Source: Paracoccaceae bacterium
GTDB taxonomy: Bacteria; Pseudomonadota; Alphaproteobacteria; Rhodobacterales; Rhodobacteraceae
DNA length: 64,000 bases
Direction of reading: 5' to 3'
Assembly: GCA_027489375.1 (NCBI GenBank)
Contig: JAIXZW010000012.1
Span: forward strand, 434,001 to 498,000
Part shown: positions 58,267-63,903 of the stretch, one piece after another
How positions within the stretch are numbered: the stretch's first letter is position 1
How the letters are laid out: each line of letters begins with the position of its first letter
Program-made: the position numbers and the translations under genes
Notes under the pieces: model-generated
Seen by the model: only the letters and a program-made list of their open reading frames with translations
What the model was told of the DNA's origin: nothing
Database searches by the model: none

Positions 58267-58626
58267 CTAGACCATCGGTTCGGTCAAGACGACCTCATCC
58301 CCGCTGCGGATCGCGGTGTAGAAACACGAGCGGCGGTTGGTGTGGCAGGCCGGTCCTTCCTGTTCCACCAGCGCAAGCAGGCAATCGCTGTCGCAATCGA
58401 CGCGCAGCTCCACCAGCCTTTGCACATGGCCCGAGGTTTCGCCCTTGATCCAGAACGCCTGACGCGAGCGGCTCCAATATGTCACGCGCCCCGTCGCCAG
58501 CGTCTGCGCCACGGCTTCCGCGTTCATCCATGCCATCATCAAGACCTCGCCCGTCGCTTGGTCCTGCGCGATGCAGGGGATCAGGCCGTTCACATCATAC
58601 TTTAGGCTGACGGGATCGAAGGGCAT
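58267..58626 (-). CDS. hisI: Phosphoribosyl-AMP cyclohydrolase
   Basis: Third step of histidine synthesis: opens the adenine ring of phosphoribosyl-AMP. A 119-residue protein with VLMMAWMNAEAVAQTLATGR, YWSRSRQAFWIKGETSGHVQ and DCDSDCLLALVEQ. The zinc Cys motif is CHTNRRSCFY. A monofunctional HisI with no HisE domain. AAGGAG precedes the ATG by seven bases. Confidence 0.95.
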   Translation of the reverse strand: MPFDPVSLKYDVNGLIPCIAQDQATGEVLMMAWMNAEAVAQTLATGRVTYWSRSRQAFWIKGETSGHVQRLVELRVDCDSDCLLALVEQEGPACHTNRRSCFYTAIRSGDEVVLTEPMV

Positions 58627-58693
58627 GCGCCTTCTCCTTGGCAGGGCGGGGATGGGGGTCTATCTAAGGGGTCGGAAGGCGAAGGGAAAGCCC

Positions 58694-59143
58694 ATGTCGG
58701 ACGCGGATCTGGTCAAGCTTTATTCGGGGCGCATTCTGGCGCTGGCGGCGGATATCCCGCATCTCGGGCGGCTGACCGCCCCCGATGGCACCGCCAAGAA
58801 ACGCTCGCCGCTTTGCGGGTCCACCGTGACGGTGGATGTCAAACTCGACCACGGGCGGATCGCGGAATTCGGGCAGGATGTGAAGGCCTGCGCCTTGGGT
58901 CAAGCCTCGGCGGCGGTCGTGGGCGCTTCGGTCATCGGGCGCACGCGGGACGAGGTGGCGCGGGCCCGCGACCAGCTTATGGCGATGCTGAAACAGAACG
59001 GCCCTGCCCCCGACGCGCCCTTCGACGGGCTGGAAGTGCTGCTTCCGGCGCGGGACTATGCGAACCGCCACGCCTCGATCCTGCTGGCGCTGGAAGCCAC
59101 GCTCGAAGCGATGGACAGCGCGGCGGCCAAGCAGAGCGCGTAA
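58694..59143 (+). CDS. Iron-sulfur cluster assembly scaffold protein (NifU/IscU-like)
   Basis: A 149-residue NifU_N-type protein. LYSGRILALAADIPHLGRL leads into SPLCGSTVTVDV, the first ligand Cys, and VKACALGQASAAVVG holds the second. The third scaffold cysteine of classical IscU is absent in the C-terminal part (LPARDYANRHASILLALEA). So it may be a divergent scaffold or use another ligand. The ATG at 58694 has AAGGGA upstream. No isc or suf gene is near. Confidence 0.82.
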   Translation: MSDADLVKLYSGRILALAADIPHLGRLTAPDGTAKKRSPLCGSTVTVDVKLDHGRIAEFGQDVKACALGQASAAVVGASVIGRTRDEVARARDQLMAMLKQNGPAPDAPFDGLEVLLPARDYANRHASILLALEATLEAMDSAAAKQSA

Positions 59144-59178
59144 AAAAAACCGCCGCGCATCCGGTTGGATGGCGGCGG
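59142..59178 (-). terminator. Rho-independent terminator of the 40-aa peptide gene
   Basis: Minus strand: 12-bp stem (arms CCGCCGC+CATCC on one side, one bulged base), 4-nt loop, followed by eight U. One of the best terminators in the window. It follows the small minus-strand gene by about 95 bp and also lies at the stop of the plus-strand scaffold gene. Confidence 0.82.
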
Positions 59179-59271
59179 AGGAGCGTGTCTTTCCGGTGAT
59201 GGGGCTTGGGGTTCCCCTGCGCGTCACTTGGGGACCGACGCGCGACCGATGGCAGACCGCAGGCAGAAAAC

Positions 59272-59394
59272 TCAGGCGTTGCCAGAGAGGTAGAGTCCGG
59301 CGACGAGCAGCGAGAACAGCGTGACCATGCCAAGCGCATCTTCGATCAGCGTGGCGCGGGAGCGGAGGACGATTTCTTTCAGTTCCGTCAGCAT
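59272..59394 (-). CDS. 40-aa single-span membrane peptide, candidate SOS-regulated gene
   Basis: A 40-residue product: amphipathic, charged N-terminus (MLTELKEIVLRSRATLIEDA) then one transmembrane segment (LGMVTLFSLLVAGLYLSGNA). AGGAG lies seven bases before the ATG, the gene has its own terminator, and a GAACN7GAAC box lies 62-76 bp upstream. This small ORF would be missed by length cut-offs. Small SOS-linked membrane peptides in other bacteria (SidA in Caulobacter, TisB in E. coli) offer a parallel, but no sequence match is claimed. Homologous short ORFs may exist in relatives. Confidence 0.68.
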   Translation of the reverse strand: MLTELKEIVLRSRATLIEDALGMVTLFSLLVAGLYLSGNA

Positions 59395-59455
59395 GGGCAA
59401 CTCCTGTTGGTTAACGAGTTGCCACTTTGTTCTCATATTTTCCCGAATCGGGCAA

Positions 59456-59470
59456 GAACTTTTTAGGAAC
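59456..59470 (-). promoter_or_regulatory. LexA-type (SOS) box
   Basis: GAAC-TTTTTAG-GAAC matches the alphaproteobacterial LexA site GAACN7GAAC (GTTCN7GTTC on the minus strand). On the minus strand it overlaps a plausible -35 (GTTCTT), about 16 bp from TATGAG. It is upstream of the 40-aa gene, and just past the recG stop. Confidence 0.7.
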
Positions 59471-59533
59471 ATTCGGGAACACAAGGGCAACATGGCCCTA
59501 AGTGTCGGGAAGATTTGAAAAACTTGTCGCGGA

Positions 59534-63903
<4,370 letters not shown>

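Follow-up and report, generated by a model that had tools for sequence, protein, structure and literature searches.

A candidate SOS-controlled gene beside recG in Rhodobacteraceae for a predicted single-span membrane peptide, with a structured 3'UTR RNA

Does the short interval downstream of recG in Rhodobacteraceae hold an SOS-controlled gene, and what might its product do? The question arose for a window of 64,000 nt from a Paracoccaceae bacterium (contig JAIXZW010000012.1, positions 434,001 to 498,000), in which an initial annotation had proposed a LexA-controlled membrane peptide. Translation confirmed the 40-codon ORF on the minus strand (59272-59394), 3' of recG, with the product MLTELKEIVLRSRATLIEDALGMVTLFSLLVAGLYLSGNA, and the AGGAG ribosome-binding site was found at 59401-59405 on the same strand. 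To place the gene among its relatives, 138 loci were fetched and reduced to 115 non-redundant ones. The C-terminus of recG (59534-61618, minus strand, in the window) lies upstream and on the same strand in 114 of these 115 loci, at a distance to the peptide ATG of 83-305 nt in 113 loci and 623 nt in one. On the other side, the window holds a neighbour on the plus strand (58571-59143), with no other minus-strand gene in the transcript before it; because this next gene is convergent, a downstream operon driven by the LexA-type box described below was ruled out for this window.

Judged by comparison of relatives, the ORF is a coding and conserved sequence. All 115 non-redundant loci have an ATG start with an SD-like site before it, and the median dN/dS within the genus was 0.21. 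The ratio stayed below 1 in each of the 128 pairs (of 136) for which it could be computed; this contrast was lost in one shifted frame and reversed in the other. On this comparative footing, the ORF is almost certainly translated into the peptide. A search with the single sequence gave peptide matches in 28 of 61 genomes, of which 27 were credible (the genome itself, 17 of 18 further genomes from its genus and 9 of 18 from the family), and the weak matches L028-L030 were discounted as chance. A profile of 21 sequences recovered the peptide in 345 of 394 sampled Rhodobacteraceae genomes at an E value of 0.01 or better, a cut-off that implies about 4 chance hits; together with the dN/dS values, this bears out the conservation of the frame in relatives on which the initial annotation had staked its reading. 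The small gene is kept in most sampled genera of the family, and named carriers include Gemmobacter straminiformis, Tabrizicola oligotrophica, Rhodobacter amnigenus and Cereibacter ovatus. The same profile search gave no match in 49 of the 394 genomes, some of which may reflect divergence. Within a class-wide sample of 385 genomes, 8 matches were obtained, 5 of them inside Rhodobacteraceae at 8e-12 or better, and the 3 matches outside the family (0.0055-0.01) were at chance level, leaving no credible relative there in this sample.

Among individual genomes, locus L194 (G289) combined a two-operator promoter like the one described below with a hydrophobic peptide of 42 residues that has diverged strongly and is not picked up by the profile, and promoter matches without a peptide match were also seen in G065, G332, G342 and G385. 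Two peptide matches each were recorded in G129, G146, G228, G288, G343, G366, G383 and G424, possibly representing a second copy or a chance second match. A search for plasmid carriage with the 40-aa query gave no match at E values up to 1. Family libraries did not provide a name either: Pfam gave no match to the window peptide or to the 21 members and NCBIfam none to the window peptide, PHROGs returned 8 families, each matched by one of the 21 members (best E value 0.01), and the PDB contained no convincing relative (best E value 0.61). The initial annotation had found no similar peptide described by name for this position. In the accessible text of the open-licence PMC literature, no description of the locus was found; a prior mention in subscription papers is possible.

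We then turn to the promoter, for which the initial annotation had pointed to a perfect GAACN7GAAC box. The box is present (GAACTTTTTAGGAAC as read at 59456-59470, corresponding to GTTCCTAAAAAGTTC on the minus strand, hereafter operator 1), but the 4+4 motif by itself is not significant, as one box was seen in the window versus 1.58 expected, and the genome scan suggested by the initial annotation yielded no excess, with 114 boxes versus 130 for the reversed control pattern. Because the count alone is at chance level, the weight of the box comes from its conservation: an exact GTTCN7GTTC or GAACN7GAAC box was found within 260 nt of the start codon in 113 of 115 loci, the exceptions being L003 and L156, and on this point, too, the initial annotation was borne out. 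A gap-free alignment of 113 promoters, picked by a GTT[CG]N7GTTCT anchor (which dropped L123 and L156), revealed the order GTTC-N6-GTTCTtAaAAAGTTCTTtACa, about 14 loose positions, and then TGAGAACAAannggCAACA, in which the anchor columns are conserved by construction because the loci were chosen by the anchor; the outermost flanks displayed no conservation.

By comparison, the promoter architecture is conserved in several further elements. The extra GAAC reported at 59477 proved real and represents a GTTC half-site on the minus strand (59477-59480) with a 6-base spacer to operator 1, and GTTC occurs at that spacing in 90 of the 113 aligned promoters. The box had also been placed over a plausible -35. 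A -35-like element does exist (59450-59455, minus strand; TTGCCC here, with TTTACA as the commonest form in relatives), but it follows the box instead of lying beneath it, and a sigma-70 consensus scan of the window found no promoter at the locus. The -10 of the candidate promoter is non-canonical, and Rhodobacter promoters may tolerate a -10 that lacks the usual T. A second operator, GAACAAAGTGGCAAC (59418-59432, minus strand), located over the presumed -10/start region, had been missed by the initial annotation. The spacing of its GAAC from the first box is exactly 38 bp in 109 of 113 promoters, and CAAC or GAAC follows eleven bases further along in 104 of 113. In a test of regulon membership, a GTTCN7GTTC-type operator (113/115 loci) and a second operator at 38 bp (109/113) were both found. 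A strict promoter pattern with at most one mismatch matched 280 of 394 family genomes, the reversed control none; among the matches listed there was one per genome, except for one genome with two, and 114 of the 394 genomes had no strict match.

Operators of the same style were found in the own genome, where the lexA promoter carries GAACGCTGACAGAAC and the recA promoter carries ATGAGAACACTTGGGGAAC, the latter in the same arrangement as operator 2 (ATGAGAACAAAGTGGCAAC). The conserved promoter geometry, together with these lexA- and recA-style boxes, therefore provides strong, albeit indirect, evidence for LexA control, and we consider SOS (LexA) control of the peptide gene very likely from its sequence. 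Two operators straddling the promoter would suit a product that is harmful to growth if made too early, and the promoter would allow a sharp test of the way in which LexA recognises direct-repeat operators that come in pairs. Ten further box stretches of the own genome were fetched, most of them for their AT-rich spacers, and ORFs, whose starts are uncertain, were scanned in eight. AT-rich GTTCN7GTTC boxes stood just before an IMS-family polymerase ORF (L195) and a UvrD helicase ORF (L197), which are likely further SOS genes; an SOS-type gene was absent in the other six of the eight, one box preceding a proline dehydrogenase ORF and five lacking a Pfam match.

The peptide itself had been described as single-span, and AlphaFold2, run without an alignment, indeed predicted one helix covering residues 2-39 (mean pLDDT 95), while a hydropathy peak above 1.6 was present in 114 of 115 loci. 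In all 115 loci, K/R is absent after residue 19 and D/E after residue 22, and because of the positive-inside rule for membrane topology the N-terminus would be cytoplasmic. Across the 98 members of forty residues, T15, G22 and L34 never vary, and D19 is D in 97, L30 is kept in 96 and L26 in 95. The helical moment of conservation over residues 3-38 reached 14.8 versus 4.8 in shuffled data (p 0.0003) and was best at 100 degrees, with positions 15, 19, 26 and 30 on the conserved face and positions 22 and 34 just beyond its 50-degree sector; for residues 20-38 alone the moment was weaker (p 0.0066), with a best angle of 180 degrees. By comparison, the conservation of the predicted helix is thus one-sided, and such a face speaks for a specific contact, be it with a partner or between copies of the peptide, more than for general membrane damage.

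The explanation we favour, tentatively and at somewhat less than even chances, is that the peptide is SOS-induced, spans the membrane once and, like SidA, binds a membrane protein and thereby arrests division. The locus would represent a monocistronic SOS gene of Rhodobacteraceae, silenced by LexA bound at both operators, immediately before the -35 and across the -10/start region. RecA-driven cleavage of LexA would release a transcript of ~280 nt and with it the 40-residue peptide, which would insert as a single helix with its N-terminus on the inside and its C-terminus outside. The conserved face with T15, D19, L26 and L30, bordered by the invariant G22 and L34, would contact a membrane protein; the likeliest partner would be the septal wall-synthesis complex (FtsW/FtsI/FtsN), and division would halt until the DNA is repaired. 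The 3'UTR RNA would end the transcript and may also act on its own. In this scheme we infer LexA binding, induction and topology, while the target and the division block are guesses by analogy.

The analogy draws on excerpts of published reports. SidA of Caulobacter crescentus is a 29-aa, SOS-induced inner-membrane protein that interacts with FtsW, and DidA of the same species is a 71-aa, single-TM, DNA-damage-induced but SOS-independent protein that interacts with FtsN (PMC4211646); YneA is likewise a small SOS-induced membrane protein acting at FtsW (PMC13396833). Because SidA and YneA act at FtsW and DidA at FtsN, a division checkpoint is favoured. With SidA, the peptide has in common that it is a very small alphaproteobacterial peptide with a predicted single span, encoded behind LexA-type operators, whereas it differs in its 40 aa, its conserved 3' RNA and its restriction to the family in the 385-genome class sample; this comparison is one of kind, made from published descriptions. 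As a DNA-damage-induced single-TM division inhibitor, DidA resembles what is proposed for the present peptide, but it is longer, SOS-independent and directed at FtsN, in contrast to the 40 aa and LexA-type operators of the present gene. The resemblance to SidA and TisB claimed by the initial annotation therefore stands in kind, but no homology to any known family was found in Pfam, NCBIfam, PHROGs or the PDB.

A helix conserved on one side would be expected equally for FtsW, for any other membrane partner and for self-assembly, and the peptide could instead be an SOS-induced modulator of another membrane protein, such as a protease, a transporter or a sensor kinase, outside the divisome. The conserved face would suggest a specific partner here as well, and nothing found singles out FtsW; against this, SidA and YneA, the SOS-induced single-span proteins with known targets in the source excerpts, act on the divisome, and we consider a target elsewhere rather unlikely. 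Also unlikely is a toxin that, once SOS-induced, oligomerises, depolarises the inner membrane, slows growth and thereby aids survival, in the manner of TisB and DinQ of Escherichia coli, which are LexA-controlled inner-membrane peptides of 29 and 27 aa (excerpts of PMC8309996). The likeness consists of a small hydrophobic membrane helix and LexA-type control, which is inferred in our case, but the TisB helix carries a charged stripe (D5, K12, D22, K26; PMC8309996), whereas the membrane part of the present peptide has none, with no charge after residue 22 in any of the 115 loci. Type I toxins of the TisB kind are further defined by an antisense RNA antitoxin.

Rhodobacteraceae include abundant marine and photosynthetic model bacteria, and the division-arresting peptide that we favour may be the missing DNA-damage checkpoint of this family. 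In the accessible text of the open-licence PMC literature, no SOS division inhibitor and no mechanism that halts division upon damage was found for Rhodobacteraceae, and recG is not mentioned in the available main text of a Dinoroseobacter study with predicted LexA sites (PMC6473078). With its presence in 345 of 394 genomes, a near-constant promoter and no family name in the searched libraries, the gene is a directly testable candidate.

The second element missed by the initial annotation is a 130-nt 3'UTR (59142-59271, minus strand) that contains C-rich loops and ends in the intrinsic terminator. The latter (59142-59178, minus strand), a GC hairpin followed by U8, had been recognised correctly and is part of the minimum-energy fold, though a simple terminator scan listed no site here. 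For the window 3'UTR the fold has an energy of -56.3 kcal/mol (z -3.6), unmatched by any shuffle, and single-sequence folds of 22 of 109 UTRs gave a median z of -4.0, the weakest being +0.1. Comparison of relatives establishes that the 3'UTR is a conserved structured RNA. CTGCCTGC does not vary among 25 close relatives, and GTCCC hardly does. An RNA model trained on these 25 (R1) matched 88 of 91 untrained loci at E values up to 0.1, and in 80 the value was below 0.001; the 91 loci are 71 + 20, with L145 not counted as an apparent duplicate of L079. At L167 the match covered the terminator part only, and L133, L152 and L194 gave none; L133 keeps both peptide and promoter, and therefore the peptide is not always dependent on the RNA. 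The own genome held one convincing R1 match, and no second copy was convincing (next best E value 2.1). Rfam returned no match for the 3'UTR, either at the gathering score or at E values up to 5, and this folded RNA, linked to the peptide gene, would constitute a new family.

Alignment cells with compensatory changes numbered 39 versus 10.8 after shuffling in one alignment and 23 versus 5.7 in a second alignment of 16 loci (A5), in both cases above all 500 shuffles, although these counts may be inflated by related sequences. A long-range stem, with both-sided changes in 6 of 7 pairs in A5, is missed by the first MAFFT alignment (A3) but appears in A5 and in a duplex test, where own arms paired at -21.5 versus -16.7 kcal/mol for crossed arms (87 of 109 loci, the other 22 being left out by the motif filter; relatives are among the crossed pairs). 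When only ungapped pairing was counted, a stricter criterion, the signal was weaker, with full pairing in 15 of 70 own pairs versus 5.4% of crossed and 1% of shuffled ones (39 of 109 left out). Two C-rich motifs are strongly repeated, as TGCCTG occurs 171 times in 109 UTRs versus 15.8 in shuffles and CTGTCC 141 times versus 8.4; this count covered 109 of 115 loci, since L084, L107, L133, L138, L152 and L172 had no terminator by pattern. The bases of both motifs are 63-66% unpaired versus 41% overall, and we would guess that the C-rich loops base-pair with G-rich sites on mRNAs or serve to bind a protein. The idea that the 3'UTR hides the SD was not supported, as the unpaired probability in 36 loci was 0.23 with it, 0.25 without it and 0.28 with shuffled sequence.

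A comparable known system is Pos19 of Rhodobacter sphaeroides, an RpoE-controlled 219-nt RNA with a 150-nt ORF that affects sulfur-metabolism genes (excerpts of PMC5036791); it is a small stress-induced RNA that also codes for a short protein, as the present transcript would be, but the present gene has LexA-type operators and a separate structured 3'UTR. One SOS transcript might deliver two effectors, a peptide that arrests division by a specific contact between membrane helices and a structured 3' RNA whose repeated C-rich loops would work in trans, on mRNAs or on a protein that binds RNA. Together they would form the DNA-damage checkpoint of Rhodobacteraceae, a reading that we regard as doubtful. 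A reading that puts the 3' RNA first, as a small RNA induced by SOS that base-pairs with targets or binds a protein through its C-rich loops, and makes the ORF secondary, draws on the conserved structure with covariation and on motif repeats far above shuffles, but is quite improbable given purifying selection on the ORF and the lack of an RNA match at L133, which has peptide and promoter, and at L194, which has the promoter and a diverged peptide. Finally, a chance origin of both the box and the ORF in the gap from recG to the next gene would agree with the background frequency of the box alone, but is ruled out for all practical purposes by the conservation of ORF, promoter and position.
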